From positions 1 through 64,000 of the forward strand of contig NZ_FUYS01000006.1 of NCBI RefSeq assembly GCF_900168055.1: DNA of 64,000 nt, written 5' to 3'. The translations under genes were made by a program, and so were the position numbers. The notes beneath the pieces are model-generated. The model saw only the letters and a list, made by a program, of their open reading frames with translations, searched no databases and was not told where the DNA came from. The stretch comes from Parapedobacter luteus (GTDB lineage: Bacteria > Bacteroidota > Bacteroidia > Sphingobacteriales > Sphingobacteriaceae). Shown here in pieces: positions 12,825-38,566 of the stretch (its first letter is position 1; each line of letters opens with the position of its first letter).

Positions 12825-13161
12825 ACAGCGTGGATTGGGTGCAGGAACAGCGACCATCCATCAAGGAAACACTTAAGTAATTAAATAAATATAAGATGAT
12901 ACGACCTGTTTTTCTTTTGTCCGAATTTGGGCATGGATATCCCTGGAACGGGGCTTTCCAAGCTTCCGCCGCCACCCAACCGCCAACTCCCTCCTTTGCT
13001 ACTTACATGCCCGGCATGTACACGTGCAGTTGTCAATAAGCACTGCTGTTTCTCCCCTATCTTCATCCGGCTTCTTCAAAGGTCCGTTTGGCAGCTGATG
13101 CCAGCGTGAATTACCATTGCCGCATACCGGCTTATTTTCTATGTTAAAAACAGAGACAACG
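12825..13161 (+). promoter_or_regulatory. Long untranslated leader containing a 17-bp perfect palindrome
   Basis: No coding sequence is convincing in this stretch: the short frames on both strands lack family features. A stem TGGAT/ATCCA brackets 12831-12860. A perfect palindrome TACATGCC-C-GGCATGTA occupies 13004-13020. The leader is long for a susC gene, and I could not match it to any riboswitch class. It may hold an operator or an unrecognised structured element. Confidence 0.35.
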
Positions 13162-16290: not shown

Positions 16291-16298
16291 AATACTGT

Positions 16299-17642: not shown

Positions 17643-17673
17643 TATTCACCATTTCAAACCGCTAGAAATCACA

Positions 17674-23021: not shown

Positions 23022-24503
23022 TTAACTGACCACCGGTTTGCGTTCGGCGGACGAAGTGCCCCAGAGCATCAACCAAGTAAGCGCGCCGTTGTAGATGATC
23101 AATTCGAAACCAACAGCGTAGCTGGTGTGGGGCACAATAACGTACGTGTTGACCAAATAACAGATGAGTGGCGACAGCACACACAAGTAAGGCACCAACC
23201 GATCGGTCACCTGCCGCGTGGTAAAAATCCCGAATGCAAACAACCCCAGCAGCGGACCATAAGTGTACGTCGCCGCCGTGAAAATGGCGTTCACGACCGA
23301 GTCGTCATTGATGACCCTGAACACCATGATGACCAGCAACATGATTACAGAAAAGGCAAAATGTACGCGATTCCGCGTTTTTACTAAATCAGCATCATTT
23401 GGATTAGCCCGTTTGTTGAAATTAAGAAAATCGACGCAAAATGAAGTCGTCAGCGCCGTCAATGCCGAGTCGGTCGTGGCAAACGTAGCGGCCGTAAGCC
23501 CCATCATAAAAATAATACCCGGTACCATGGCCAGGTGATGCAGAGCGATTTCGGGGTACAAGTAGTCCGGTGTAGGCAGGCCGGCCACATCGATGCTGTT
23601 TTTGGCGGCGAAGTTAAACAGCAAAGCGCCCACAGCCAAAAAAAACAAATTGATAATCACAAATATCCCCGTAAAGGTAAGCATGTTCTTTTGTGCTTCC
23701 CCGATGGTCTTCATACTCAGGTTTTTTTGCATAAGGTCTTGATCCAAACCCGTCATTGCCACGGTTACAAATATTCCGCCAAGAAAATGCTTCCAGAAAT
23801 GGATGCGGTTCCCCAGAAAATCTTCCCAAAAAAACACCGTTGAATAACTGCTTGTTTTCACCGTCTCGATGGTCTCCATCAGCCCCAACCCCAGACTATC
23901 GGCCATAAAATAGATGGAAAGGATGACCGCCAACACCAGAAAAAACGTTTGCAACATGTCCGTAATGATGATGGTCTTCAATCCACCCTTATTGGTATAC
24001 AGCCAGATGAGCAGTAAACACAGCGCAATAGTGACGGCAAAAGGAACATTCCAGGCATCGAAGATAAACCATTGGAGGATAATGGCCACCAGATAAAGCC
24101 GGAACGCCGAGCCTATCGTGCGCGATATCAAGAATATCATGGCACCTGTTTTATAACTCCGCTGCCCCAGGCGTTCCTCCAGATAGGTATAAATGGAGGT
24201 AAGATTCATCCGGTAATACAGAGGCAGCAGCACATAGGCAATGATGACAAACCCCACTGCATTACCCAATATGAATTGGAAATAACCAAAGTCGCTACTT
24301 CCCACTGCTCCCGGCACGGATATGAATGTGACCCCTGAAAGTGCCGTACCTATCATACCAAAGGCTACCATGTACCATTTGACATTGCGGTTAGCAACGA
24401 AAAAGGTGGCATTGTCTGCTGATTTCCGCGAAGTAAAATAGGCGATACCAAGCAAGAGGCCAAAGTAGGCCACCAAAAAAAACAGAAGAACAGTCGGCGT
24501 CAT
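23022..24503 (-). CDS. Sodium:solute symporter (SSS family), likely MurNAc importer
   Basis: This 493-residue inner membrane protein has about 13 hydrophobic segments and typical SSS features near the N-terminus (YFTSRKSADNATFFVANRNVKWYMVAFGMIGTALSGVTF). These proteins import sugars, sialic acid or other solutes with sodium. The gene starts 10 nt after murQ in the same direction and lies downstream of three muramidase-like genes. The simplest substrate is therefore free N-acetylmuramic acid; Tannerella forsythia is known to use a dedicated inner membrane MurNAc transporter. Unlike a PTS, a symporter delivers unphosphorylated sugar, so a kinase would be needed before MurQ can act. Family is certain; the substrate is inferred from context. 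Confidence 0.85.
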   Translation of the reverse strand: MTPTVLLFFLVAYFGLLLGIAYFTSRKSADNATFFVANRNVKWYMVAFGMIGTALSGVTFISVPGAVGSSDFGYFQFILGNAVGFVIIAYVLLPLYYRMNLTSIYTYLEERLGQRSYKTGAMIFLISRTIGSAFRLYLVAIILQWFIFDAWNVPFAVTIALCLLLIWLYTNKGGLKTIIITDMLQTFFLVLAVILSIYFMADSLGLGLMETIETVKTSSYSTVFFWEDFLGNRIHFWKHFLGGIFVTVAMTGLDQDLMQKNLSMKTIGEAQKNMLTFTGIFVIINLFFLAVGALLFNFAAKNSIDVAGLPTPDYLYPEIALHHLAMVPGIIFMMGLTAATFATTDSALTALTTSFCVDFLNFNKRANPNDADLVKTRNRVHFAFSVIMLLVIMVFRVINDDSVVNAIFTAATYTYGPLLGLFAFGIFTTRQVTDRLVPYLCVLSPLICYLVNTYVIVPHTSYAVGFELIIYNGALTWLMLWGTSSAERKPVVS

Positions 24504-24513
24504 ACGTTTAGGG

Positions 24514-25335
24514 TTAATGATCCGCTATGCGGGAATGTTCGATAGCTTTGCGAACACTACCATGCTTTTCAAGCAAATCAGAGGCAGTTTGCGCATCAAT
24601 CCCTGTTTCCTCCATAATGATACGGATACCCCGGCTAAACAGCTTATTGTTGGTTAGCTGCATGTCGACCATTTTATTTCCCTTTACCCGGCCCAACCGG
24701 ATCATCACCGCAGTACTAATCATATTGAGTACCAGCTTCTGCGCAGTACCGGCTTTCATACGAGTAGAGCCGGTGACAAATTCCGGCCCAACAATCACTT
24801 CTATGGGATATTGGGCTTCTGCGGCGATGACCGTACGGTCGTTACATACGATACACCCTGTCACCAAGCCCGCGTTGTTGGCTGCCATCAGTGCTCCTTT
24901 TACATAAGGAGTCCCGCCGGAAGCGGCGATTCCCACCACCACATCCTTACTATTGATGCCATATTCCTGTAGGTCCAGCCACGCTTGTTCTTCGTCGTCT
25001 TCGGCAAACTCCACAGCCTTGCGGATAGCGGTATCTCCTCCGGCAATGATGCCGATAATCCAATCATACGGTACACCGAAGGTAGGCGGGCACTCCGAGG
25101 CATCCAGAATCCCCAAACGGCCACTCGTACCTGCACCAACATAAAACAACCGTCCTCCCGCTTTCATTGAAGCTACGGTAGCTTCAATGAGACGCGTTAT
25201 CTGTGGAATAGCCTTTTGTACAGCAATGGCAACTGTCTGATCCTCCTTGTTAATGTTCATCAATAGCTCATCAACAGACATTTTGTCCAAATCCTGGTAA
25301 TTCGATTCTTTCTCGGTAGTGTTCGTCATCTGCAT
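24514..25335 (-). CDS. murQ: N-acetylmuramic acid 6-phosphate etherase
   Basis: The product has 273 residues, close to the family length. It is a SIS-domain lyase that cleaves the D-lactyl ether of MurNAc-6-phosphate to give GlcNAc-6-phosphate and D-lactate in the cytoplasm. Diagnostic motifs are GAGTSGRLGILDASECPPTFG (about 66-86), PEFVTGSTRMKAGTAQKLVLNM and the C-terminal helical region. The start at 25335 (MQMTNTTEK) or 25329 (MTNTTEK) cannot be separated. It follows the last of three GH171 genes by 90 nt and precedes the symporter gene by 10 nt. The neighbourhood gives it a clear role in catabolic MurNAc salvage rather than only wall recycling. Confidence 0.95.
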   Translation of the reverse strand: MQMTNTTEKESNYQDLDKMSVDELLMNINKEDQTVAIAVQKAIPQITRLIEATVASMKAGGRLFYVGAGTSGRLGILDASECPPTFGVPYDWIIGIIAGGDTAIRKAVEFAEDDEEQAWLDLQEYGINSKDVVVGIAASGGTPYVKGALMAANNAGLVTGCIVCNDRTVIAAEAQYPIEVIVGPEFVTGSTRMKAGTAQKLVLNMISTAVMIRLGRVKGNKMVDMQLTNNKLFSRGIRIIMEETGIDAQTASDLLEKHGSVRKAIEHSRIADH

Positions 25336-25425
25336 ATCTAAGTAAAAACAATTTTACGAAATTTTCTTTTTATAGCTCAATTAAAGTACGGATTGGAACA
25401 TTTTGTCACTATCAATTTCCAGTTA

Positions 25426-26691
25426 TCAATACATTAAGTACGGTGTGCGCATTTGCTTAAAATGTGTTACCTCAGCTTCCCAAGATTGATAGATATCTGC
25501 CGGTGTTTTTCCCGCTTTAATCATACTAATCAAGCGATCTGTTCCCGTTAAGCGATATAGTACCTGTTCATTCCAGACTAGTTTATCCGGATGTAGCCGA
25601 TTAATCGCCCAAACCAATGCTATGCCAATTCGATATCCTGCACTGACATTGCGATCCCTGATACGGAGATACACGCCGTTGCAATGCGTTTCATTAAACT
25701 CAGGTGGCCTACTTAAAAATGGCATTTGTGTTGGCTCAAATGTGACGGACTCGAAGTCCACTCCGTCGAAGCCCAAGCTGTCCATCAATCGGACAACTTG
25801 GAAATTGTCCAGCCAAGGCGCGCCAATGTACTCAAAAGGCCTAGCTGTCCCCCGGCCTTCCGAAACATTAAACCCTTCAAACAGGCACGTGCCCTCGTAC
25901 GCCATCACGGCATCGAGCGTCAGCAGATTAGGCGATGGCTTCCGCCAGGGCAAGCCCGTATCGTCAAACCACATTGACCGCCGCCATCCTTTCATCGGCA
26001 CTACATGAAGTTTGGGCGCATCTTCCACTCGAAGCAGCCTTTCCCCGATATAGAGCTTGGCCAGTTCGCCCATGGTCATGCCATGCCGAATGGGAATCTT
26101 TCCATATGCCCCGAATGTGTAGCGGTATTTATCGTCGGTCACAAAACCATCCATATCGATGCCATTCAATGGATTTGGCCGATCCAACACGATGACTTCC
26201 AACCCCTGTTCGGCAGCGGCTTCCATCACGAAACCCAAAATATTGACGTGTTCATAAAATCGAAGGCCTACCTCCTGAATATCGAATACGATGACCTCGG
26301 CCTCGCCCAACATAGCAGCAGTGGGCTTGTGAATATCTCCGTACAGGGAGTATTTTGTCACGCCTGTGGGGGTATCAATCGTTTTCTGCGGATCGCGTGG
26401 TATAGCATAATCATTGGAACGTATATCGAATTCCATTCCAAACAACACCTCCAACTGCACATCGGGATGTGCGTATAGTGCATCCGCCAAATGAGTTCCG
26501 TCTGCCAATCTACCGCTATGATTGGAAACCAACGCAACGCGTTTCCCACTAATAAGATGTATATACTCCCCAAATAAGCGATCTGCGCCACAAAGCACAG
26601 CCGGTTCGGCTGCGCCGGACACGGCGTCAACGGCATCAGCTACCAAAGGCATCCAAGAAAGCCATATACTAACTAGCATTGCAAACATCAC
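25426..26691 (-). CDS. GH171 (NamZ/DUF1343) family protein, divergent third copy
   Basis: This exported protein (421 residues, signal peptide over the first 20) belongs to the DUF1343 family. Members include NamZ, an exo-beta-N-acetylmuramidase that removes non-reducing MurNAc (GH171). Family motifs present are VSNHSG, VIVFDIQEVGLRFYEHV, IVLDRPNPLNG, IPIRHGMTMGELA and GTCLFEGFNVSEGRGT. The segment that reads FGPEHG in its two neighbours is FGMEFDIRS here (84-92): the glutamate is kept, but the proline, histidine and glycine are lost. The following linker is also different. This could mean altered specificity or lost activity. ATG codons two and five residues in are alternative starts. It lies 23 nt after the second copy. 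Confidence 0.88.
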   Translation of the reverse strand: MMFAMLVSIWLSWMPLVADAVDAVSGAAEPAVLCGADRLFGEYIHLISGKRVALVSNHSGRLADGTHLADALYAHPDVQLEVLFGMEFDIRSNDYAIPRDPQKTIDTPTGVTKYSLYGDIHKPTAAMLGEAEVIVFDIQEVGLRFYEHVNILGFVMEAAAEQGLEVIVLDRPNPLNGIDMDGFVTDDKYRYTFGAYGKIPIRHGMTMGELAKLYIGERLLRVEDAPKLHVVPMKGWRRSMWFDDTGLPWRKPSPNLLTLDAVMAYEGTCLFEGFNVSEGRGTARPFEYIGAPWLDNFQVVRLMDSLGFDGVDFESVTFEPTQMPFLSRPPEFNETHCNGVYLRIRDRNVSAGYRIGIALVWAINRLHPDKLVWNEQVLYRLTGTDRLISMIKAGKTPADIYQSWEAEVTHFKQMRTPYLMY

Positions 26692-26714
26692 AGGGCAATT
26701 AATTAGGCAATTAA

Positions 26715-27938
26715 TTAGTTGTACAGGAGATACTTTTTCCGAAGTTCTTTATACGCAGAGAGGCCCGGCTCCCAACTCTGTTGGATATCTTCCACCGATA
26801 CACCGTCCCTAATCTGTTGGGCGAGCTTGTCATTCCCGGCCAATCGTTTGAAGGAATCCCTGAAAAACAAATCTTTATCAGGATACGCTTCATACAATTC
26901 CTTCAGCCACGACAGGTTAATGCGGCCGGTTTCCTTAAACACATCCGTATCATACGATCGCAAATCCAGCCCGTAGCAGGCTTTATCCAGGTGTTTGGGG
27001 TTTTCGCTCATGCCGGGGATAGATTCCGGAGTGAATGAAAAATCATACTTTCCTTTAAGCCTAGGACTTCCCACCATGGAAAACGCATGCATCGTGCCCC
27101 GCCCTTCGCTGATATCGGTCCCCTCAAACAAGCAAGTGGACGGGTAGAGTAGGATCGCTTGCTGGGTATTCAAGTTGGGAGATGGCGGAATGGGCAGCGT
27201 GTAGGGCTTCCCGTGATAGTAATTCAGCATAGGGATCACGTTGATCTTACATGTTATCCCATTGGCCAGCCATCCCTGATCGTTGATCATGGCGGCATAC
27301 TCGCCAAACGTGAGCCCATGCACAATCGGAATCGGATGCATACCGATGAACGACTCGTAGCCCTTTTCCAAAATAGGTCCATCTACATAGCCGTCGTTCG
27401 GATTCGGCCTGTCGAGGATGAGCAACTCGATATCGTTTTCGGCACAGGCCTCCATGATATAATGGAGGGTTGACAGGTAAGTATAAAACCGCACGCCCAC
27501 ATCCTGCATATCGAATATCATGACATCGATACCCGCTAAATCCGCTTTCGTCGGTTTATATTTCTTGCCATACAGGGACACCAGCGGCACCCCGGTCTTC
27601 TCATCAACCTCATCATTAATCTTGGCTCCTGCGCTGGCATCGCCCCGGAAGCCATGCTCCGGCCCGAAGCCCCGCACAATCTGCACACCCAGGGCGAGCA
27701 GGCTATCCATGCTCAATTTGCCCCCGATGGTAGACGTGTGGTTAATGGTCAGCCCTACCCGCTTACCCTGAAGGTAAGGGACATAGGCTTCGGTCTGTGC
27801 CGCACCGGTGATGATGCTGTCTTCAACAGCAAGCACGGATTCGCTACCAGTTTCAGCCTGTTGTTTACTCGTTGAAGAAGAACATGACTGGGCGATAAAA
27901 AACAAGGCCATCACCCATAATAAAACCTGAATTTTCAT
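26715..27938 (-). CDS. GH171 (NamZ/DUF1343) exo-beta-N-acetylmuramidase-like lipoprotein
   Basis: The product has 407 residues from ATG 27938, chosen because it gives a lipoprotein signal with cysteine 19 (FFIAQSC). An upstream extension of the frame to 27992 would place 18 charged residues before the signal. The family motifs are complete: FGPEHGFRG (91-99), PTKADLAGIDVMIFDMQDVGVRFYTY, LILDRPNPNDGYVDGP, IPIVHGLTFGEYAAMI, STCLFEGTDISEGRGT and a C-terminal helical region ending KKYLLYN. By family it should remove MurNAc from the non-reducing end of peptidoglycan fragments, here at the periplasmic side of a membrane or on the cell surface. The spacing (46 nt before it, 23 nt after it) indicates co-transcription with the other two copies. 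Confidence 0.92.
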   Translation of the reverse strand: MKIQVLLWVMALFFIAQSCSSSTSKQQAETGSESVLAVEDSIITGAAQTEAYVPYLQGKRVGLTINHTSTIGGKLSMDSLLALGVQIVRGFGPEHGFRGDASAGAKINDEVDEKTGVPLVSLYGKKYKPTKADLAGIDVMIFDMQDVGVRFYTYLSTLHYIMEACAENDIELLILDRPNPNDGYVDGPILEKGYESFIGMHPIPIVHGLTFGEYAAMINDQGWLANGITCKINVIPMLNYYHGKPYTLPIPPSPNLNTQQAILLYPSTCLFEGTDISEGRGTMHAFSMVGSPRLKGKYDFSFTPESIPGMSENPKHLDKACYGLDLRSYDTDVFKETGRINLSWLKELYEAYPDKDLFFRDSFKRLAGNDKLAQQIRDGVSVEDIQQSWEPGLSAYKELRKKYLLYN

Positions 27939-27984
27939 AATCTGAACATTTATGTTGTTTATTTCACTACGATTTAGTTCCTGC

Positions 27985-29196
27985 TTATTCATAGAGCAGA
28001 TATTTTTTCCGCATACCTCTATACCGGTTAAGCGCTGGTTCCCAGCTTTCCCGGATCTGCGCTTCGGTATACCCGGCTTTCAACTGCTTTCGGAGCGACT
28101 GTGTTCCTGCCTGTTGATCAAAATGCAAAACAGCGTCCTCGCCCAATTCCGCTTCGCGGTTGAAAAAATTTGCTTTATCCGGATAGGCCTCGTACAGTTC
28201 GAGCAGCCACCGCAAGTTCAGCCGTTTAGTCGCCCGGAAAGCTTCCAAATCCAGCCCCCTTAAGTCCAACCCATAGCACGTGTCTCCCGCGTGCATGGGA
28301 TGTTCACTCATTCCATGGATTGCCTGCGGCACAAATGAAAATGCATATTTTCCGCGCAATGCAGGGCTTCCCAGCAATTGGAATGGCGTATACGTACCCC
28401 TCCCGTCGCTGATGGCGGTCCCACCAAACCAGCATAGCGATGGGTAAAGATAGATCGAGCGCTGCGTATTTAAGTTGGGCGAAGGCGGCACGGGAAGCTC
28501 ATAGTCCATCCCGTGGCGGTAGTTTAGCATGGAAATAACCGTAAGTGGGCATTGTAGCCCGCCATGGAGCCAGCCTTGGCCGTTGATCATCCGAGCGTAC
28601 TCGCCCATGGTCATGCCATGTACCACGGGAATAGGATGCATGCCGATAAACGATTGGCATGCGGGCTCCAGTACCGGGCCATCGATATAGCCATCATTCG
28701 GATTTGGACGATCCAGCACAATTATCGCGATATGATTTTCAGCACACGCTTCCATCACGTAATGCAAGGTGGAAATGTACGTATAAAACCGCACACCGAC
28801 GTCTTGCATGTCAAACACCATCACGTCAATACCTTCCAAATCCTGCTTGGTCGGTTTGTAATATGCTCCAAACAAAGACGTCACAGGCACGCCAGTCCGC
28901 TCGTCAGTCCCATGTGCAACAAACCGATTAGCACTTGTTTGACCCGAGACACCATGTTCCGGCCCAAATGCACGCACCACATGCACCCCGCTGCTGAGCA
29001 GCGTATCGATCAGTCGCGTGCCATCAACAAGCGAACTTTGGTTAATGGCAAGCCCGACGCCCTTTCCTTCAAGTAGCGGCAAGTATACATCCATACGGTT
29101 TGCTCCAGGTACCAGCGGCATGTCAGCATGGCGCGCCACGCCGCACACACAGCATACCATCAAGGTCAAAACCAACGATACACGCAATACCCTCAT
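27985..29196 (-). CDS. GH171 (NamZ/DUF1343) exo-beta-N-acetylmuramidase-like protein, first copy
   Basis: The product has 403 residues from ATG 29196. The start overlaps the stop of the preceding hydrolase gene (ATGA arrangement), which suggests translational coupling and fixes the start. A signal peptide with two adjacent cysteines (MVCCVCG) precedes the mature part, so either lipidation or ordinary cleavage is possible. The conserved motifs FGPEHGVSG (77-85), IDVMVFDMQDVGVRFYTY, IVLDRPNPNDGYIDGP, IPVVHGMTMGEYARMI and LCWFGGTAISDGRGT are present. It is closest to the second copy and clearly related to the third by tandem duplication. The presumed function is MurNAc release from peptidoglycan fragments. 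Confidence 0.92.
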   Translation of the reverse strand: MRVLRVSLVLTLMVCCVCGVARHADMPLVPGANRMDVYLPLLEGKGVGLAINQSSLVDGTRLIDTLLSSGVHVVRAFGPEHGVSGQTSANRFVAHGTDERTGVPVTSLFGAYYKPTKQDLEGIDVMVFDMQDVGVRFYTYISTLHYVMEACAENHIAIIVLDRPNPNDGYIDGPVLEPACQSFIGMHPIPVVHGMTMGEYARMINGQGWLHGGLQCPLTVISMLNYRHGMDYELPVPPSPNLNTQRSIYLYPSLCWFGGTAISDGRGTYTPFQLLGSPALRGKYAFSFVPQAIHGMSEHPMHAGDTCYGLDLRGLDLEAFRATKRLNLRWLLELYEAYPDKANFFNREAELGEDAVLHFDQQAGTQSLRKQLKAGYTEAQIRESWEPALNRYRGMRKKYLLYE

Positions 29197-31505
29197 AATG
29201 ACGGAATAAATTCGATAAAACATATTCCCCTTGGCGGCAATGTAAAACGTACCTTGCTCGTCCCGTCTCGGTAGTCACCCAACTTCGTCATGCCCGTTTC
29301 GTCGTACACATAGATTTCACCAGCGCTTTCCAGGCCATAATCTGCCGTATTCATCATAAAATCAACCGGAAGATGTTGTCTGCTGATACTGGCTATGGCA
29401 ACGGCCAATGAGCCATCACGCGATTTCCATGCCGAAGTGTATGCCGTCGGATAGGATTTTTCAAAGCGGGTGACCTTTTCGTTATGACCGGCATAGATGG
29501 AGAGTTTCGAAATCGATATCGTTTCTTCCGGAATCGCGATCATTGGCGGCCGCTTGAATTCGCCATGTACGAAATATTTCAATCCCGCCTGCCGCACTTT
29601 GCCCAAACGCAGGATATAACCGATCTCCGTTTCCCTTGCCGAATCCAACGATGGCTGATAGTTGGCAATCATGGGTTGCATACCCCACGCAAACGACCGT
29701 GCCTGCTCCATTAAAAACTGCCTATTGAATACCGGGTCTAAGGGCGTTTCGGCATCAGCAGGAGCAAATTCCCGGGGCCATAGTTCATCATAGGGAGGAG
29801 TCATCAACGACGAGTAATTACCAAAAGTGATAGCATATTCGTGATACACCGCCTGAAACAGGGGAACCGTCTGCCAGCTGTGTATGCCGGCATACCGCTC
29901 CTTGCTCACTTGCAGTGCCAAGAACACATCCAGGAATGGCAGCCAATTCTCACCGACGCCTTCCCCCGCCAATACCTGGTTGCCTCCTTGAGGGAAGGAT
30001 GCGCGTATCAATTGATCTTTCCGTGCGAAATGCTGAACCCAATAGTTGCCACCACCTATAGGGTGGCCATGAGCAGGGTCATAACACATACGGCTCTGGC
30101 AAGCCTGATCCATGTATACCCCGTCTACACCATACTGGTTCACTGCGGTATCCACCAACGAAGCATATTTGTTTTTCCAAAAGTCCGTAGCCTCACACAT
30201 ATTTGTCAACGCCTTTTTTGTGAAGATGTTGTATACATGGCTCAACGCATGACCATGGATATCCTTGCCAGCATACCGCTCAGCGTGCTCGTCTTTCCAA
30301 CTTTGGGTAGATGGGCCCCATTTCAAGGCATTCATGTATACCAAGGCATGTACTCCCTGCTGTTGAGCATCGCGCAATTCCCTTATAAATTGCTGCTTGC
30401 CGTCCCTAGGCGGAAAATACTCGGGGAAAGAATCGTCATAAGAGCCACCGTGCCACCAATGCCATAGTACGTTCACCGGAAGCCCCAGCCGATGGCTTAA
30501 TGCTACTGCAGGGGGTAGCACATGCGCTCCCCGGCCTCTGTTCCAAACCCAGTAACCCGTGTTTTCCACCCATGCAGGGACCCCACGGTTTTTCAGCCGG
30601 CTGTTGAGACACCATGGCTGCCGCTCCGCCCAGCGTTTATAAAGCTGTGCGGCCGTTAACCAATCCCCCTTGAACGCCCCAATGATAAACCTATAATCCG
30701 GCCGATAGGTTTCCTGCTGATCGTCAAAGGGAGGAAAATGATCGACGCTGTAAGATAACTGCTCGGTACTATCCATGGAAAGCGAAAACTCCTTGTTATA
30801 TGCCGCGGTATCATCACAAGCCAGGTAAAGCCCTGCACGATGCGGATTATATAGCGCCAAGAACTGCATGGACATATGGCCCGGATAAGACCACGCAAAC
30901 CGCTTCTGTGCCCCCCCGGATGCGGATAGTTCCTTGCGAGGCGACTGCAGCAGCGACCCCATCCAATCAGGTGCCACCAGCTCCTCATCTCCCAAGTCAG
31001 CGAGCCCGGCAACCCGAGGGAATGTGACTTTGCTGATACGCTTTCCCTGAATGCCGTCAATCGCAATGCGCCAAGTAGACATTGCGGAGTCCGGAAGCAA
31101 CCCCACGTAGGCCGTCACTGTAAAACCTTTCGGCAATTCGGGGAAATCACTCCATTTCAGCTCAAGCTGATTTTCAGTGTGATGGTACACAAATCGGGTA
31201 GCCGACCGGATATTGACTCGGCTTGGCTGATTTCCCCCAGCTATTGTTATTTCCCATGGCGAGCTTCCCTGCGAAGCGGTTTCCGCTAAAAACGACACTC
31301 GTTCGGGAAGAAATACCATTTCCTTCAGCTCACCCGTAGTACGGTCAAAAGCCACCTGGAAGTGGTCATTTTTTAAGGAGACCAAATTGTCAGGTTCGCC
31401 GGTCTGCGAATAAGCAGCGTTGAATGCGCCAAACGGCAGAAAACAGGTCATCGCCAATAAGCAGATGAACTGCCAAGCAACATATCTTTTAGGTATCATT
31501 GTCAT
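29193..31505 (-). CDS. Exported glycoside hydrolase-like protein (DUF6259-like)
   Basis: The product has 770 residues from ATG 31505. That start overlaps the upstream gene by 17 nt and gives a signal peptide ending AAYSQ near residue 34. A beta-rich N-terminal domain is followed by a TIM-barrel-like region that contains WHWWHGGSYDDSFPEYFPPRDG. It also has YGVDGVYMDQACQSRMCYDPAHGH (Asp near residue 466) and VLAGEGVGENWLPFLDVF. The DG-Y-D and GEG-EN patterns sit where clan-D-type retaining hydrolases have nucleophile and acid/base, so it is probably catalytic. I associate it with the DUF6259 type from memory, without a search. No substrate is established. It lies between a GH42-like gene and the first GH171 gene, with overlaps on both sides. 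Confidence 0.7.
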   Translation of the reverse strand: MTMIPKRYVAWQFICLLAMTCFLPFGAFNAAYSQTGEPDNLVSLKNDHFQVAFDRTTGELKEMVFLPERVSFLAETASQGSSPWEITIAGGNQPSRVNIRSATRFVYHHTENQLELKWSDFPELPKGFTVTAYVGLLPDSAMSTWRIAIDGIQGKRISKVTFPRVAGLADLGDEELVAPDWMGSLLQSPRKELSASGGAQKRFAWSYPGHMSMQFLALYNPHRAGLYLACDDTAAYNKEFSLSMDSTEQLSYSVDHFPPFDDQQETYRPDYRFIIGAFKGDWLTAAQLYKRWAERQPWCLNSRLKNRGVPAWVENTGYWVWNRGRGAHVLPPAVALSHRLGLPVNVLWHWWHGGSYDDSFPEYFPPRDGKQQFIRELRDAQQQGVHALVYMNALKWGPSTQSWKDEHAERYAGKDIHGHALSHVYNIFTKKALTNMCEATDFWKNKYASLVDTAVNQYGVDGVYMDQACQSRMCYDPAHGHPIGGGNYWVQHFARKDQLIRASFPQGGNQVLAGEGVGENWLPFLDVFLALQVSKERYAGIHSWQTVPLFQAVYHEYAITFGNYSSLMTPPYDELWPREFAPADAETPLDPVFNRQFLMEQARSFAWGMQPMIANYQPSLDSARETEIGYILRLGKVRQAGLKYFVHGEFKRPPMIAIPEETISISKLSIYAGHNEKVTRFEKSYPTAYTSAWKSRDGSLAVAIASISRQHLPVDFMMNTADYGLESAGEIYVYDETGMTKLGDYRDGTSKVRFTLPPRGICFIEFIPSL

Positions 31506-33480
31506 GGTTGTTTGATGGTTCAATTCTAAAAATCCTGGTCGTGTTCGGCGGCATGTGCATCGCAAACGTATCAGCCTCGGCCAACACCTGCCCATCTTCC
31601 GGATCGATTACTTTCGCGCGGAAGGGCAACCGTAACGTCTTCTTGCCGCCGTGGAGCGAGTGAATGCATAGCCAACCTCTTCCGGCGTAGACGACATCAT
31701 CGCCGCCATCTACATAGCAATGCACACCAGCCCGGCGTAGCAAGTCGTTGAGTGCCGCAGCTTCCCATTGCAATTTTTCCGTGGTTATCAATGGCGTATC
31801 CCCGGGCTGGAAGACCTCCGAGCGATGGCCGTCTGTCCAAATCACCCAAGCGCCCCGTCCGGTGGCAGCATTAATGAATTTCCGTTCCGCGGCAGTAAGG
31901 GTGAGAACCCCCATCAACCACACCACACGGTAATCGCCGTCAGCCAGCAAGTCCAAATCGTCGCGCAAATACAAATCATACGGTGCCCCCATTCTGCCCA
32001 GTGGATAGCGGTTGCGCAGCACCGATCCGGTTAGTTTGCCGAAAGAAGCATCCATAAAGCCAAGCTGCTCGTCTACGACGACCGCAACCTCTGCCTTCAT
32101 CTGTGGCACTGCTTTGTCTGGATACCGGTTGAAAAATCGTTGCCCGCTTTCGATGACATGCATGAGGCGGGGGTCACTGAACCAGCCTCCCCACATATCA
32201 AACCACCACCCTCCATAACCGTAAGCCAACATACGGCCCAGATTTTTCCAAAGCAAGGACACCGAAACGTCCATGGACTGCGGCCCTACCCATACGCCAT
32301 CCGTATATGCATTTCCCGGCGGGGCCACTTCGGGTGCACGGTCGCGCAACATTGTTGTGATAGCGGTTCGCGTATCATTTTCCGCCAACCAAAGCTTGCC
32401 ATGCAGCTGCACCGATTTGATGGCCGCAAAAGGGGGCCAGTCTTCGCCACTTACGCGGTTGTAATCATTCGGGCTGGACAGGTAATCCAATTCCGGGCAT
32501 CGCAACAATTTTGATAGCGCCCCGTGCCCCCGGCGCAGATCACTCACGAAATAGTGATACCCGTAGAAGGCGCCGGTAAGCAATCTATTCTTGCTGGTTT
32601 CTTTGACGATGCGGCAAAAATAGGCGACATGATCGGCCATCGTTTCGCCATGGAAAGCAAAGGTGTCGAATATCCTTCCTGAAGTGTCCGCATGGCGCCA
32701 CTGCTCCGACTTGGTCCGCCCGCTGATATCCGCGAGCATTGCCGTCTCAAAAGTCACCCTAGGCTCGTTCCAAGCCTGCCGCAGACTGTCCACATTATAC
32801 CGGTAGCGTTCGCGCAGCCATGTTCTAAACCCCTGTAACCGCGCCGGATTATCGTCATAAAACTCATCCTTAAAGTGATACATCCACTCTTCGGTAAACC
32901 CGCCAGCGACATGGATACCCACCAGGTGATCGGCATATTCAGATTCCAGCAACCATCGAACAAAGGTGCTCAGTACCTTTCCGGCTTCTTCTTGCCAAAA
33001 CGGACTGTAAAAACTATTTCGGTAGGTAGTTCCATCCGGCAGCAAGCAAGCACTTTCCGGGTATTTTTGCTCCCACCATACCGGCGGGTCCAAATGAATG
33101 CGGATAATGGCCAGTGCCTGCGTATCCGCAGCTATGATTTCCTCAAAGTCATGGATAACACTTGCATAATCGAAGGTCTCTTCGCCGATCCAAATCGGCT
33201 TGCGGAAGGGCTTAATCCCGCTACTTGAATTAATCCCTCGGTCACCTAAGTAAGCAGGGATATTATATAAATGCACCCCTGCTTGCGCCGCTTCCCGGTA
33301 ATAAGCCGGTTCGCCCAGGTAGGACATATACGCATAAGGGGGGTATGGGCTATCATCCACAAAAAGTGTAGGCACCCCCTGATGCATGCGTACGGATGCA
33401 ACATGCTGCGCGACTCCCACCAGCACATTGCATAGGAGAACTACGCCCCATCCTATCGTTAATCCATACCGCATAACCAT
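31489..33480 (-). CDS. Exported clan GH-A hydrolase, GH42-like
   Basis: The product has 663 residues. The start codon overlaps the susD stop in TGATG (ATG 33480); the TTG one codon earlier is less likely. The signal peptide ends near GVAQ. The TIM barrel shows a likely acid/base in GIHVAGGFTEEWMYH (Glu197 or Glu198) and a likely nucleophile in KLWLAENDTR (Glu367), the spacing expected for GH42-like retaining enzymes. The region after about 450 (AEVAVVVDEQLGFM, VVWLMGVLTLTAAER, GAWVIWTDG) resembles the beta-galactosidase trimerisation domain. The family is therefore GH42-like, but it could belong to a newer clan-A family. In this locus it might cleave a hexose-containing glycan linked to MurNAc, which is conjecture. 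Confidence 0.75.
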   Translation of the reverse strand: MVMRYGLTIGWGVVLLCNVLVGVAQHVASVRMHQGVPTLFVDDSPYPPYAYMSYLGEPAYYREAAQAGVHLYNIPAYLGDRGINSSSGIKPFRKPIWIGEETFDYASVIHDFEEIIAADTQALAIIRIHLDPPVWWEQKYPESACLLPDGTTYRNSFYSPFWQEEAGKVLSTFVRWLLESEYADHLVGIHVAGGFTEEWMYHFKDEFYDDNPARLQGFRTWLRERYRYNVDSLRQAWNEPRVTFETAMLADISGRTKSEQWRHADTSGRIFDTFAFHGETMADHVAYFCRIVKETSKNRLLTGAFYGYHYFVSDLRRGHGALSKLLRCPELDYLSSPNDYNRVSGEDWPPFAAIKSVQLHGKLWLAENDTRTAITTMLRDRAPEVAPPGNAYTDGVWVGPQSMDVSVSLLWKNLGRMLAYGYGGWWFDMWGGWFSDPRLMHVIESGQRFFNRYPDKAVPQMKAEVAVVVDEQLGFMDASFGKLTGSVLRNRYPLGRMGAPYDLYLRDDLDLLADGDYRVVWLMGVLTLTAAERKFINAATGRGAWVIWTDGHRSEVFQPGDTPLITTEKLQWEAAALNDLLRRAGVHCYVDGGDDVVYAGRGWLCIHSLHGGKKTLRLPFRAKVIDPEDGQVLAEADTFAMHMPPNTTRIFRIEPSNNHDNDT

Positions 33481-34934
33481 CAATACCCCGGATTTTGATC
33501 CGCCTGGTTGATTTCCGGATTGGTGTCAATCTCCTGCTGAGGAATCGGCCAGTTGATATGCGCATCGGCCACGGTGATACCGGTGTATTTCAGGATAGAC
33601 GCGTTAATCTTATTTGTACGCTTCAAGTCTAGCCACCTTTTCCCTTCCAGAAAAAGTTCATATGCCCGTTCCTGCAAAACCGAATCCTGAAATGATGAGG
33701 CGGTCCACCCACTTGACGGGTAATCAACCGGCGACGGCGTATCGATTGGGTACCCGTATCCACGCCGTTTGATTCTATTCAGGAGTTCGATGGCCGTAGC
33801 AGATGGCCCACCTTCAGCCATTGCCGAAGCTTCGGCCTGTATCAACAAGACATCGGCATACCGAAGGAACGGATAGTCATTCGCGTGGCCTGAACTGGTC
33901 GGGGCGTTAGGATCCCTGAATTTACTGAACTGCACGGGTGCTAGCCCGGGCAATTGCACGTCCTGCCCCGTAGTCGGGTCGGTATAATGGGTAAATACAC
34001 CCCACTGTTTACGCCAGTCATTATCATTCCATTCATTGAGGAATTTATTATCAAGCGAGGAGGTCATCACATAGTTTCCAAACGGAGAATAGGGGGTTCC
34101 CTGGTAGAGCAGGTTATGAGGCCATTGCGTCCCGTTCAAGTGATTATATTTTAGGTAGAAAATCTCCTCAGAAGTGCCGTTCGCCCCCGCGCCGAAGATC
34201 CGATCCCAATCGTTGAGCTGGGCCACAGTAACCAAGCCAAATTTGTTTGCGCTGATCACTTCTTCCGCCTTTTGTTGGGCCAACGCCCATTCGCCGCGGG
34301 TCAGGTACACATCCGCCAGGAAAGCCTTACTTGCCCACTTTGTCGGCCGCCCAAATTGCGCGGGTACATCAGGCAGCACCGATTCGCCAACTTCCAAATC
34401 GACGATAATCGAGGCGTACACCTCGTCCACAGGCGTTCGGGCAGTGTGCCCCTGTGTGGTCGATAAAATCAACGGTACGGCACCCCAATGTCTTACCAAG
34501 TGATAATAGCTGAATGCCCGCATAAAACGTGCTTCAGCAAGTAACCTTTCTTTGGCCGTTTCGTTGACATCCGTCATTTCGGAAATCCGTTCAATGGCTG
34601 TATTAGCATAGAGGATACTTTGGTAAAGGTATTGCCAGACTAGCCCGACCCGCTGCGCATTGGTCGCATCAAGCCCCTGGTAGGCTCCCACAGCAGCCGT
34701 GGATCCCCTTCCAATGGAAAACTCAGCCATGATTTCCACTTGAAGCAAGTATTGGCCGCCAAAAACCGATACCACGCGTATTGGTTGATAAATTGCATCG
34801 ACTGCGGCTTGCGCGTCTTCGAGCGTCTTGTAAAAGTTCTCCTCTGTGATTCGGTCTTCCGGAATCTCTTCCAGAAAGTCGCTGCAAGCGACTGCCGATA
34901 AAGCCATTAGAGCTATAAAAACAAACTTTTTCAT
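33480..34934 (-). CDS. SusD/RagB-family lipoprotein of the MurNAc locus
   Basis: This 484-residue lipoprotein starts at ATG 34934, which gives MKKFVFIALMALSAVACSDF with the lipid-modified cysteine at residue 17. The open frame begins upstream at 34976 without a signal peptide, so I reject that start. SusD signatures include SVLQERAYELFLEGKRWLDLKRTNKI and the closing segment PQQEIDTNPEINQADQNPGY. It starts 53 nt after its SusC partner. It is translationally linked to the GH42-like gene by a TGATG overlap. It would capture the glycan on the surface for import through the SusC channel. Confidence 0.93.
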   Translation of the reverse strand: MKKFVFIALMALSAVACSDFLEEIPEDRITEENFYKTLEDAQAAVDAIYQPIRVVSVFGGQYLLQVEIMAEFSIGRGSTAAVGAYQGLDATNAQRVGLVWQYLYQSILYANTAIERISEMTDVNETAKERLLAEARFMRAFSYYHLVRHWGAVPLILSTTQGHTARTPVDEVYASIIVDLEVGESVLPDVPAQFGRPTKWASKAFLADVYLTRGEWALAQQKAEEVISANKFGLVTVAQLNDWDRIFGAGANGTSEEIFYLKYNHLNGTQWPHNLLYQGTPYSPFGNYVMTSSLDNKFLNEWNDNDWRKQWGVFTHYTDPTTGQDVQLPGLAPVQFSKFRDPNAPTSSGHANDYPFLRYADVLLIQAEASAMAEGGPSATAIELLNRIKRRGYGYPIDTPSPVDYPSSGWTASSFQDSVLQERAYELFLEGKRWLDLKRTNKINASILKYTGITVADAHINWPIPQQEIDTNPEINQADQNPGY

Positions 34935-34987
34935 CCTTTTTATTGTTCTTGCGTTGACAATTTTCTTAAAATCCACTGCACGGCAGA

Positions 34988-37972
34988 CTAAAACCTTAGC
35001 CTCACACCGAGTAAAAATGTACGAGCGTCCGGATAACCGTATTGATCAATTCCTCGGGAAATCCCGCCGCCAACAGTATTAACCTCGGGTGTATAAAACG
35101 AATAATCCGTGATGGTGAACAAATTTTGTGCAGACAAATACACCTGAGAGTTTTCCAGATTAAGCGCTTTAAGACGCAAATTCTTAAACGTGTACGCCAG
35201 TTGCACGTTCCGCATCCGGATATACGACCCGTCCTCTACATATCGGTCGGATGCCCGGTAAACGGTAGTCGAACTAATTTTTGGATACTTTGCGTTCGGA
35301 TTGGGATTATCTGCGGTCCAATAATTGCCCATAACATCCTGTATTTGGTTGATTCCAAAGCTAAACCCATCAGCTATATTCGTAAAACCATAGTTGAAGA
35401 TGTCGTTGCCTTGTACACAGTTGAGCAAAAATGAGAGTGTCAAATTCTTATAGGTGAGCGATGAATTGATACCCAATATATAGTCAGGGTTGGGGTCACC
35501 GATAATGGTACGATCCGACGCGTTGATGACACCGTTCCCATCTAGGTCAACAAAATTGATTGCCCCGTCGGCGGTTAGTCCGTTTTCCACATACCCGTAA
35601 AACACGCCTACAGGGTGCCCTTCCCGCACTAAGCTGACCGGCAAGCCGACAGGAAGGCCCAAGGTGGCGCCAAAGATATCAGCACCGTCAGCCAATTCAA
35701 GCACCTTATTGCGGTTCATCGAAAGGTTTACACCCACGTTCCATTTAAACCGATCATTATCTACGATTGCACCATTTATCGAAGCATCTATCCCTTTGTT
35801 TTCCACGCTGCCCACATTCCTTGGTACAGACACGTATCCGCTGGACAAAGGAAGCGGAGAAGACGTCAGCAAATCCCGGGTTTTCTTATGGTAGTAATCA
35901 AACACCAGCGATAGCCGATTGTTCCAAAAACCTAGGTCTATGCCCACATCGAACTGTCCGGTGGTTTCCCATTTCAACTCAGGGTTCGGCTGGATACCTC
36001 CCGGCCCGTAGCCCACTGTTAAATTATCATCGAATACCACGGGAAGCCCTAGAAGCACTGCCTGCGATTGATACGGATCGATGGATGTACTACCGGTCTT
36101 TCCCCAGCTGGCCCGCAGCTTGAAATCGTTGATAGTCGTAGATAGATCCCCCCAAAACTCCTCACCGCTAATCCGCCAGGCTCCAGCCACCGAAGGGAAA
36201 TACCCCCATCTGTTCTCCCGGCCGAACCGCGAAGAGCCGTCCGCACGGATGCTAGCAGTCAACAAGTACTTGTCCTGGTAAGAATAATTAACCCGCCCCA
36301 GCCAAGAAAGGATAGAATATTCCGTTCGATACGATTGCGGGATCTTCGGGTCGTTACCAGACTGCAAATTCAGGTTGGTCAGCAAATCCAACGCAAAACC
36401 AGTAGCTCCGGCTGTCACTCCCTGGGTGATTGTGCGTTGGCTGGTCAGCCCCCCTAAAGCTTTTATTTCATGCCCGTTTCCAAACCGTTTTGTGTACGTC
36501 ATGGTGTTTTCATTGACCACATTCATTACTTCACCATAGCTGAGCGTAGCATCGCCATTGGCCGATACCTGAAACATCCTTGGCGAATAAAAATCGGCCC
36601 TATTGTTTTGGTACTCCACACCCACGGAGGTACGCAGCACCAAGTCATCGGTCAGGTTACCGGTCAGCGCTCCATTGGCAAGCAAGCTTTTCCGTGTGGT
36701 CAAATCCGTGCGCTCGAGCGCCGTCATTACCGGGTTCTCCGCAATATCTGGACTGAAAGCATACGCCCGGATGTTGCGGTAGCTGCCGTCTTCGTTATAA
36801 ATTCCGATGGTGGGGGGTGCGATTAGTGCTCCGCTTAGCACGCCGCTGCCCCGTTCGGTGTTGTCACTCTTGAGGATATTGCTTTTCGAACGGTTTACTA
36901 TCGTATTCAACGATATATTCCATCCTTTAAACAGTTCATGGTCTATGGTATTGCGAAGTTGCATCTGTTCATAAAACGAGTTGAGAATAACGCCCTGCTG
37001 ATCAAGGTAGTTGCCTGAGATACTGAATTTCGTCCGTTCACTGCCGCCAGCTATCAGCACCGAGTGATTTTGCATGGGGCTCGTATCGAAGATGGCATCC
37101 TGCCAATCCGTCCCTTCACCAAACGAAGCGATTTCTTCGTCCGTAAAAAAGGGCGCCACACCATCATTGGCCGCTCGCTCGTTGGCAAGGATAGCAAAAT
37201 CACGCGCGCCAAGCATATCCATGGTCTTGTAAACGCTCTGCCAACCGTAATAACCGTTGTATTCGATCTTCGTACCCGTTGCCGTCCCCTTTTTTGTGGT
37301 CACCATCACCACGCCATTTGCACCGCGCGATCCATAAATTGCAGTCGCTGACGCATCCTTCAGCACTTCCATGGAGACGATATCATTTGGATTGATAATT
37401 TCCAGCGAACCTGATATCGGAAACCCGTCCACCACATAAAGCGGTTCGTTGCCCCCCAGGATTGAGTTCCCACCACGCACGCGGACACTCAGTGCGCTAC
37501 CTGGCTGCCCCGAATTCTGCAATACTTCCACCCCCGGTGTAATGCCGGACAAAGCCTGCAAGGGACTTCTTACCGCTTGGGCACTTATCTGTTCGCCCCG
37601 AATCGTGGCAACAGACCCTGTAATCTCCGCACGGCGCTGCGTTCCATAACCTACAACGACGACCTCTTCAAGAGGATTGTCACTGGTCAGCTGTACATCG
37701 ATTATCGTAGATTCAGCTACAGGTATTTCTTGCGTAGCATAGCCCACGTAACTAAATACAAGCGTCTGCCCGTCCAAGGCGGCTATCTGGTAGCGCCCCG
37801 CATCGTCCGTAGAAGAACCGCTCCCCGTTTGCTTCACCTTGACGGACACACCGACCAGGGGCATCCCATTCTCAAAGGCAGTTACCGTGCCTGAAATGGT
37901 TTGCTCCTGCGCTTTGGAAGGCAGGAGGAAGGACATCAATAGTCCTAGCAATAAATAAATTTGTTTTTTCAT
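34988..37972 (-). CDS. SusC/RagA-family TonB-linked receptor of the MurNAc locus
   Basis: This 994-residue SusC-type receptor is the first gene of the minus-strand operon that runs to the symporter. The signal peptide ends PSKA-QE. The regulatory-like domain, LEEVVVVGYGTQRRAEITGS, the plug motifs LYVVDGFPI and SMEVLKDASATAIYGSRGANGVVMVTTKKG, and a barrel ending FLLGVRLRF are all present. No hybrid two-component, AraC or sigma/anti-sigma regulator gene sits beside it, so control must come from elsewhere. Tandem ATGCAT-containing repeats occur upstream of its likely promoter. Downstream genes indicate that the ligand carries N-acetylmuramic acid. Confidence 0.93.
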   Translation of the reverse strand: MKKQIYLLLGLLMSFLLPSKAQEQTISGTVTAFENGMPLVGVSVKVKQTGSGSSTDDAGRYQIAALDGQTLVFSYVGYATQEIPVAESTIIDVQLTSDNPLEEVVVVGYGTQRRAEITGSVATIRGEQISAQAVRSPLQALSGITPGVEVLQNSGQPGSALSVRVRGGNSILGGNEPLYVVDGFPISGSLEIINPNDIVSMEVLKDASATAIYGSRGANGVVMVTTKKGTATGTKIEYNGYYGWQSVYKTMDMLGARDFAILANERAANDGVAPFFTDEEIASFGEGTDWQDAIFDTSPMQNHSVLIAGGSERTKFSISGNYLDQQGVILNSFYEQMQLRNTIDHELFKGWNISLNTIVNRSKSNILKSDNTERGSGVLSGALIAPPTIGIYNEDGSYRNIRAYAFSPDIAENPVMTALERTDLTTRKSLLANGALTGNLTDDLVLRTSVGVEYQNNRADFYSPRMFQVSANGDATLSYGEVMNVVNENTMTYTKRFGNGHEIKALGGLTSQRTITQGVTAGATGFALDLLTNLNLQSGNDPKIPQSYRTEYSILSWLGRVNYSYQDKYLLTASIRADGSSRFGRENRWGYFPSVAGAWRISGEEFWGDLSTTINDFKLRASWGKTGSTSIDPYQSQAVLLGLPVVFDDNLTVGYGPGGIQPNPELKWETTGQFDVGIDLGFWNNRLSLVFDYYHKKTRDLLTSSPLPLSSGYVSVPRNVGSVENKGIDASINGAIVDNDRFKWNVGVNLSMNRNKVLELADGADIFGATLGLPVGLPVSLVREGHPVGVFYGYVENGLTADGAINFVDLDGNGVINASDRTIIGDPNPDYILGINSSLTYKNLTLSFLLNCVQGNDIFNYGFTNIADGFSFGINQIQDVMGNYWTADNPNPNAKYPKISSTTVYRASDRYVEDGSYIRMRNVQLAYTFKNLRLKALNLENSQVYLSAQNLFTITDYSFYTPEVNTVGGGISRGIDQYGYPDARTFLLGVRLRF

Positions 37973-38089: not shown

Positions 38090-38133
38090 CAAGTATAGAA
38101 AATATCATTTACATTTATGCATGTTTATGCATG
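38090..38133 (-). promoter_or_regulatory. Promoter region of the MurNAc locus with two tandem 10-bp repeats
   Basis: On the minus strand TATACTTG (38097-38090) is one mismatch from TAnnTTTG and would start a leader of about 110 nt. Directly upstream are two perfect copies of a 10-bp repeat (plus-strand TTTATGCATG at 38114-38123 and 38124-38133). They cover the -33 position, where no TTTG is seen. Two identical sites one helical turn apart at -33 are what an activator that replaces the -33 contact would need. Confidence 0.45.
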
Positions 38134-38449
38134 TTTTTTCATTTTGTTACAAAAACACACCCTATTTAAATCCAAAACACCCTCTTTTGAATGCAAAAAC
38201 AGCTGTACCACTACACAAAATACGCAAGAAAACGCACAAACAATCGTACCTTTCCCAACGTTCATTGACACGCGTTCGCCCTGCCGGTAGTTTTGAACAA
38301 TTCCGATGTTTCCCGCAAAATTTCTGGTCTAGGTGTGCGCGGTGTGAGGCACCCCGAGGCACCCGCTCTGCAACACGTCGCTCCCGATGGTTCAGCGCAG
38401 CAGCACGAAGGCACGCCTGCTGGGGTTCGGTGACCGCACCGCACAGTGT
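38134..38449. other. Intergenic stretch without a recognisable gene
   Basis: No open frame here has family features. A 145-codon frame (38121-38558, plus) is rich in Arg, Cys and Ser, crosses the repeat array and looks noncoding. The first 130 nt are AT-rich and the remainder is GC-rich, an abrupt change at about 38265. I see no tRNA, attachment site or insertion-sequence end. Confidence 0.5.
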
Positions 38450-38566
38450 TACCCCCGTGGTACTTCTTTCCTACCCCTTGCTTACCCATACTTTACTTTT
38501 TACCCGGATTTTATTCGGTGCTTGTTCGGATCATGTTCGGAGTTTGCTCAGTTGTTAACCGAATAA
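38450..38566 (+). repeat. Degenerate 11-bp phased repeat array
   Basis: Consecutive units start at 38450, 38461, 38472, 38483, 38494 (a short 7-bp unit), 38501, 38512, 38523, 38534, 38545 and 38556. Apart from the short one, each is 11 bp. Every unit begins with T, then A or G, and most then have pyrimidines and a C at position 5 (general form T-R-Y-Y-C). TTCGG recurs exactly 11 bp apart at 38514, 38525 and 38536. The array changes gradually from TACCC-type to TGTTCGG-type units. TTATTCGGT (38511-38519) is also an inverted match to ACCGAATAA (38558-38566). Function unknown. Confidence 0.65.

Follow-up and report, generated by a model that had tools for sequence, protein, structure and literature searches.

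A candidate PUL for MurNAc-containing glycans in Parapedobacter luteus joins a SusCD pair and two hydrolases of unstudied activity to NamZ, MurQ and a sodium symporter

Introduction

What does a SusCD pair bring into the cell when the genes that follow it end in a MurNAc-6-phosphate etherase and a sodium/solute symporter? The question is raised by nine genes in a stretch of 64,000 nucleotides from Parapedobacter luteus (contig NZ_FUYS01000006.1, positions 1 to 64,000), here called the window; an earlier note, made from the letters alone, had read them as a locus for the use of MurNAc glycans.

In SusCD-type PULs, SusC and SusD are followed by hydrolases on the same strand, as in the window; the window run differs from them in its MurNAc-related genes, in two hydrolases of unstudied activity, and in showing no recognised regulator. 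For Tannerella forsythia, a murTKQ operon and a nine-gene peptidoglycan salvage cluster have been described (PMC5790795, PMC7670621, PMC10465942). As far as the available text of these papers goes, murTKQ serves MurNAc salvage in a member of the Bacteroidota with a transporter of the sodium symporter superfamily and MurQ, as found in the window (PMC5790795 assigns MurT both to this superfamily and to MFS), and a title cited in PMC10465942 refers to two known NamZ enzymes of the species. In contrast, the kinase lies inside the T. forsythia operon and outside the window locus, and the available descriptions of the cluster mention no SusCD, GH42-like or DUF6259 protein, all of which the window has. 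Three further papers (PMC11748540, PMC13228077, PMC11382707) mention GH171 or peptidoglycan turnover, and a SusCD-MurNAc locus does not appear in the available parts of their text; there, PMC13228077 discusses secreted enzymes of sediments, with the wall polymers of dead bacteria as a prime target. Among the literature matches listed, no title or abstract opening describes a SusCD locus for MurNAc glycans, and the literature search found no paper naming DUF6259.

Results

Gene content and layout

The nine genes lie at 23022-37972 on the minus strand and run from 37972 towards 23022 (Table 1). ORF calls and family profiles bear out the names and the common strand given in the earlier note, in the order SusC, SusD, GH42-like, DUF6259, NamZa, NamZb, NamZc, MurQ, SSS. 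With the DUF6259 start corrected (see below), the intergenic gaps are 11, -4, -17, -31, -8, 23, 90 and 10 bp, the first of them separating the adjacent susC and susD homologues; five carbohydrate-active-type proteins, namely the GH42-like protein, DUF6259 and the three GH171 proteins, are co-directional with SusCD. Among the nine genes there is no endo-acting peptidoglycan enzyme or peptidase, and no regulator was recognised. The promoter motif of the Bacteroidota type has two matches in the window, at chance level, and none upstream of SusC. A TonB-dependent receptor gene directly downstream of SSS is a tenth on the same strand; its membership in the operon is uncertain, and a neighbour 90% identical to it stands beside SSS-MurQ in a congener (L116).

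Table 1. Genes of the locus and the receptor gene that follows it
Feature	Position	Strand	Evidence or comment
SusC-type TonB-dependent transporter, 994 aa	34988..37972	-	TIGR04056 E 1.5e-256
SusD-type surface glycan-binding protein, 498 aa	33480..34976	-	SusD-like_3 + SusD_RagB
GH42-like hydrolase	31489..33483	-	PF02449 E 2.6e-5
DUF6259 hydrolase-like protein	29193..31505 (ORF to 31595)	-	PF19773 E 2.5e-128
NamZa, GH171	27985..29223	-	NamZ_N E 3.5e-76; 4jja E 1.3e-88
NamZb, GH171	26715..27992	-	NamZ_N + NamZ_C
NamZc, divergent GH171	25426..26691	-	NamZ_N + NamZ_C; GMEFD replaces GPEHG
MurQ, MurNAc-6-phosphate etherase	24514..25335	-	TIGR00274 equivalog
SSS sodium/solute symporter, candidate inner-membrane MurNAc importer	23022..24503	-	PF00474 E 1.4e-21
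TonB-dependent receptor, directly downstream of SSS	20365..22911	-	uncertain operon member

Around the locus, a 145-residue ORF with no Pfam match (38121-38558) lies between SusC and a divergent galactokinase gene, and a second TonB-dependent receptor/SusD pair (13117-17642, plus strand) lies to the left, beside an M14 peptidase (17440-20253).

SusCD and the two hydrolases

Loci with GH42-like and DUF6259 genes in Kriegella (L132), a Bacteroidales MAG (L133), Arenibacter (L138 and L142), Chitinophaga (L130) and Dyadobacter (L154) hold SusCD pairs to which the window SusC is 55-58% and the window SusD 55-60% identical; against the pairs of P. indicus and P. defluvii, the values are 28-29% for SusC and 26-27% for SusD. 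As judged by eye, the N-terminus of SusD is lipoprotein-like and that of the GH42-like protein signal-peptide-like; the true start of SusD is probably a later ATG than the one called.

The family name of the GH42-like protein comes from PF02449 (Glyco_hydro_42), which scores 24.2 bits against a cut-off of 21 and covers only model positions 72-240 (169 of 376); a profile of 27 GH42-like sequences matches solved GH42 beta-galactosidases, best 6lvw with E 2.5e-6. The DUF6259 profile (10 rows) matches 5opq, a 3,6-anhydro-D-galactosidase which we take to be a GH129 enzyme, with E 3.4e-8; the best stretch is N-terminal (profile positions 8-174), so that the match says little about the catalytic domain of DUF6259. 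For both proteins the likeness is weak, and the similarity to GH42 beta-galactosidases and 5opq is too low to assign an activity. E198/E199 and E368 are near-invariant among 33 GH42-like sequences, and D496 and E545/E549 are invariant in the DUF6259 alignment; these residues are candidates for the catalytic ones. Predicted structures, calculated from input alignments of only four and three sequences, were poor (mean pLDDT 50.6 for the GH42-like protein, 34.7 for DUF6259). As called, the two ORFs overlap by 107 bp, which is probably a start artefact: the first invariant Met in the 10-row alignment is residue 31, placing the DUF6259 start near 31505.

In a MAG of Tannerella, a single frame of 1389 residues (L151:1489-5658, plus strand) is DUF6259-like in one part (29%) and GH42-like in another (52%). 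This natural fusion suggests that the two parts act jointly.

Three NamZ copies in two clades

All three NamZ matches of the genome fall inside the locus, and in each of them NamZ_N and NamZ_C score above their cut-offs, both domains being those of the GH171/NamZ exo-beta-N-acetylmuramidases (4jja, 4k05). The earlier note had treated the copies as alike, which they are not. NamZa and NamZb keep the GPEHG motif, whose Glu we take to be the catalytic residue; at this site NamZc has GMEFD and its two clade mates GMHFN, where most other sequences in the alignment carry GPEHG. Relative to enzymes of the 4jja/4k05 type, the window copies thus span two separate clades, one of them without GPEHG. In a 58-row NamZ tree (L142, a near-copy of L138, omitted), NamZa and NamZb group with NamZb of P. 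defluvii with support 99/95, NamZa forming a long branch sister to the NamZb pair, and NamZc clusters with copies from Kriegella and Bacteroidales with support 100/100; deep placement in this tree is unsure, given its long branches. By eye, NamZb has a lipoprotein-like N-terminus; it is 80% identical to the NamZ of the P. defluvii locus.

A third type of NamZ, with GPQHG and no signal peptide evident by eye, is found in Kriegella, Arenibacter, G462 and G665. Its copies (L132:14308-15519, L138:14306-15517, L191:5467-6651, L188:6669-7856, L199:9456-10700) recur in loci of Flavobacteriaceae, and they may be cytoplasmic or non-hydrolytic relatives of NamZ.

The galactosidase-like profiles of the GH42-like and DUF6259 proteins, the altered GH171 motifs, and a set of nine genes that is free of endo-peptidoglycan enzymes would all agree with a sugar that is not the MurNAc of peptidoglycan, be it another lactyl-ether sugar or the MurNAc of a different glycan. 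We consider this somewhat unlikely, with regard to the gene content of relatives described below.

MurQ, the symporter and the steps encoded elsewhere

MurQ scores 324.3 bits against the TIGR00274 equivalog cut-off of 302 and is the only copy in the genome above the family cut-off, two weaker matches falling below it; the SSS protein (PF00474), which adjoins it, is of the sodium-symporter type. The phosphorylation step is missing from the locus, as had been stated before: Pfam and TIGR profiles find no MurNAc kinase among the nine genes, and three MurK-family kinases are encoded elsewhere in the genome. The lactyl-pocket triad of MurK, given as S133-P134-L135 in the available text of PMC10465942, is in none of these three, which by eye carry D-S-A, Q-G-I and F-G-L at its positions (the kinase of the Mariniphaga locus described below has P-P-L). 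Outside the locus the genome likewise encodes a protein like D-lactate dehydrogenase (51%) and one like NagB (60%), and with the kinases these are candidates for the D-lactate, NagB and phosphorylation steps.

The above-cut-off MurQ and all NamZ genes of the genome being located here, any recycling of wall material by this route must use them. The locus could accordingly be one for recovering the cell's own wall turnover products, rather than for feeding on foreign walls, as would also fit genes that are near universal in the family. Three observations make us regard recycling as unlikely to be what the locus is for. SusCD and additional hydrolases with signal-peptide-like starts exceed its apparent need; Kriegella and Mariniphaga, which have related loci, each have a second MurQ elsewhere in the genome; and the outer-membrane and hydrolase part varies among close relatives, with MurQ-SSS constant, as shown in the following two sections.

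The site in Parapedobacter and the family background

NamZ and MurQ are each present in 148 of the 151 sampled genomes of the family, so that the presence of MurQ is not special in itself. GH42-like matches occur in 11 of the 151 (four close, with at least 58% identity and the window included; the other seven at 22-31%), and DUF6259 matches in 12, four of them above cut-off. The close GH42-like gene of another genus (G007) has no DUF6259, MurQ or NamZ nearby; distant DUF6259 genes (a pair in G111, a second one in G045) are near SusCD, with MurQ and NamZ absent from the 20-kb stretch.

At the matching site, the congener G078 has an M14 peptidase, a TonB receptor, SSS, MurQ and one NamZ, followed by galactokinase and epimerase genes and by genes of the response regulator/kinase type; its flanks are 85-92% identical, gene by gene, to those of the window. 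Its one NamZ corresponds in place to seven window genes (NamZc, NamZb, NamZa, DUF6259, GH42-like, SusD and SusC). That the window NamZ genes are the NamZ of this site was considered and is rejected by the NamZ tree, in which the G078 copy falls into another supported clade.

GH42-like (66-67%) and DUF6259 (64%) genes also stand ahead of MurQ-SSS in P. indicus and P. defluvii, behind a different SusCD pair and between different flanks, the downstream one of which is common with G068. NamZ was not found at the P. indicus locus; at that of P. defluvii there is NamZb (80%), and a further 48 residues match the end of NamZc. The MurQs of the two species are 89-91% identical to that of the window; since their GH42-like and DUF6259 proteins diverge more, the comparison suggests that these were acquired separately or are changing fast. 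Four Parapedobacter genomes (G045, G068, G087, G093) contain three to five MurQ-like genes each, some only about 50% identical to that of the window.

The site comparison raises the possibility that a PUL whose substrate is an unrelated glycan, such as one with galactose, inserted by chance beside resident NamZ-MurQ-SSS recycling genes, the two halves being independent. A core MurQ and NamZ, a congener with the same flanks around a simple NamZ-MurQ-SSS, and the galactosidase-like profiles of both hydrolases are all compatible with such an insertion, as are two related loci with full flanks in which MurNAc genes are missing (see below). Against it stand the three NamZ genes within the module itself and, as detailed below, the recurrence of MurNAc genes at related loci in other genera; we consider it very unlikely.

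Other MurQ-SSS operons of the family

Ten MurQ loci without the module were fetched from relatives; they were taken from among the best MurQ matches and are not a random choice. SSS follows MurQ in all ten, and in six a same-strand SusC and SusD lie upstream (L113, L114, L115, L119, L120, L121); L112 has NamZ and no SusC upstream, L116-L118 have NamZ alone. Between SusCD and MurQ lie a metallophosphoesterase/PQQ protein, a GH9 and a polysaccharide deacetylase (L112, L113, L119 and L121 were scanned, L120 partly; L114 was matched through homologues), the first two forming one fused gene in L112. Operons of this kind, in which SusCD and/or NamZ accompany metallophosphoesterase/PQQ, GH9, deacetylase, MurQ and SSS, are found at L112:4344-12367, L114:13-11890 and L119-L121. 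Those with SusCD share with the window the same-strand run of SusCD, MurQ and SSS, several also NamZ, and differ from it in having another SusD, and GH9 and deacetylase in place of the GH42-like and DUF6259 proteins. The survey of the ten loci shows a stable MurQ-SSS end with variable genes in front of it. It also qualifies the statement in the earlier note that no PUL of this content has been described: none appears among the literature matches listed, but SusCD-MurQ-SSS operons as such occupy six of these ten loci.

Related loci in other taxa

A scan of the genome collection for GH42-like genes yielded 37 loci from 138 stretches matching two 7-residue patterns, an incomplete set, and DUF6259 is present in 11 of them. 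Counting the window, MurQ or NamZ occurs in 8 of 12 loci with both genes and in 0 of 26 without DUF6259 (Fisher p 1e-5), and with the genus Parapedobacter excluded in 5 of 9 against 0 of 26 (p 4e-4), both p-values being overstated as related loci are counted as independent; several of the 26 are on short contigs (including L124, L126, L127, L144, L150 and L153), and 14 include 9 kb or more of sequence on each side. The locus of Kriegella (L132) reads SusC-SusD-GH42-like-DUF6259-NamZ-SSS-MurQ-NamZ, with a DeoR-type regulator and NamZc on the opposite strand, and that of Mariniphaga (L149) GH42-like-DUF6259-SSS-kinase-MurQ, where the kinase matches MurK of T. forsythia (8ow9) with E 4.9e-67. No MurNAc gene lies within 10 kb of the GH42-like, DUF6259 and SusCD genes in Chitinophaga (L130) and Dyadobacter (L154), two loci whose flanks are complete; L136 and L151 show no MurQ or NamZ, but each is short on one side.

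At the locus end, Kriegella and Arenibacter encode a protein of 313-315 residues with no Pfam match (L132:19264-20211, L138:15544-16485; 55% identical to each other), which is also matched in Arenibacter L142 and Mariniphaga L149. A Pfam survey of 108 neighbours of GH42-like genes (54 + 54, with 66 and 51 families, of which the 25 most frequent were considered each time; loci L125-L152, which mostly lack DUF6259, although L151 has a DUF6259-like part) gave no consistent substrate theme.

With DUF6259 as bait, close matches (E <=1e-60) were found in 3 of 395 genomes of the class sample (the window's, G462 and G485) and in 4 of 149 genomes of the family of G462 (G462, G561, G665 and G662, the latter being Kriegella). 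Four of the five non-window genomes have MurQ adjacent or within about 3 kb, together with SSS and NamZ; in the stretch from G485, MurQ, SSS and NamZ are absent. G462, G561 and G665, which represent three further genera of Flavobacteriaceae, have in common SusC, a SusD of the SusD-like_2 type (a different Pfam type from the window SusD), SSS, DUF6259, MurQ, a DeoR-type regulator, a GH3 with the KHFPGH motif and a D-lactate-dehydrogenase-like FAD/Fe-S protein; G462 and G561 additionally encode a NagB-like protein and a GH18 that bears a secretion tail. Some of these proteins were assigned through their 76-90% identity to another member of the set that had itself been scanned. By family, the added genes encode the kind of enzymes one would expect to handle GlcNAc-MurNAc chains and the D-lactate released by MurQ, and the GH3 in three relatives and GH18 in two of them speak against a sugar other than the MurNAc of peptidoglycan; a GH42-like gene is absent from the stretch examined in all three.

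A search for related gene sets, named in the earlier note as a check, thus finds MurQ, NamZ and SSS beside DUF6259 in other families, some of the loci adding a MurK-family kinase, GH3 or GH18, and so supports the reading as a MurNAc-glycan locus. The loci L130 and L154 and the DUF6259 genome G485, which lack such genes, weigh against it. The recurrence of MurQ, NamZ and SSS beside DUF6259 in Kriegella and three other Flavobacteriaceae genera, and of MurQ and SSS in Mariniphaga, is also what a chance insertion would not lead one to expect; neither is the finding that the NamZc and GPQHG clades occur, within a limited sampling, only in or beside MurNAc-type DUF6259 loci.

Inheritance of MurQ

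In a 48-row MurQ tree (duplicate rows collapsed; G462, G561 and G665 excluded), the five locus MurQs, from the window, P. indicus, P. defluvii, Kriegella and Mariniphaga, need five label changes, at least four of them forced by well-supported branches, and the Mariniphaga locus MurQ is the sister of that genome's own second copy. All 500 of 500 label shuffles gave a number as low, so the locus label is unclustered, the pattern to be expected from a MurQ that moved independently of the module. Joint travel of MurQ and module among Parapedobacter, Kriegella and Mariniphaga is rejected on this basis, the exact place of the long-branched Kriegella row being unsure. Three of the five are Parapedobacter sequences with one resident MurQ-SSS pair, which leaves two independent cases outside the genus in the tree. 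MurQs not inherited with the locus, found beside it nonetheless, again argue against association by chance. The MurQ and SSS proteins of G462, G561 and G665 are nearest to Kriegella's in the compared set (72% and 67% for G462), so that in Flavobacteriaceae the two genes may have descended along with the locus.

Discussion

Taken together, we judge from the gene content that the locus joins a SusCD PUL to MurNAc salvage of the murTKQ type, and we think it likely that it is a PUL for a MurNAc-containing glycan, most simply fragments of foreign peptidoglycan. In the pathway that we propose, SusCD would capture an oligosaccharide and pass it to the periplasm, where it is probably trimmed by the GH42-like protein and by DUF6259; NamZa and NamZb would then free MurNAc from the non-reducing end, whereas the role of NamZc would be altered or non-catalytic. 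Import of MurNAc into the cytoplasm would fall to the SSS symporter, and its phosphorylation to one of the MurK-family kinases from elsewhere in the genome; MurQ would then split the lactyl ether, and the products, GlcNAc-6-P and D-lactate, would enter central metabolism.

The locus and its relatives make up a testable gene set, and they point to two unstudied hydrolase families. Modules appear to have been exchanged ahead of a fixed sugar-salvage pair. Going further, we tentatively raise the idea, which we hold to be possible rather than probable, that the GH42-like and DUF6259 proteins represent two new families of carbohydrate-active enzymes, which act jointly on a decorated MurNAc glycan, with substituents of the galactose or galactosamine type, and that Bacteroidota swap capture and hydrolase modules in front of a stable MurQ-SSS. 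If this is true, the specificity for wall glycans would be switched while the intracellular end stays the same.
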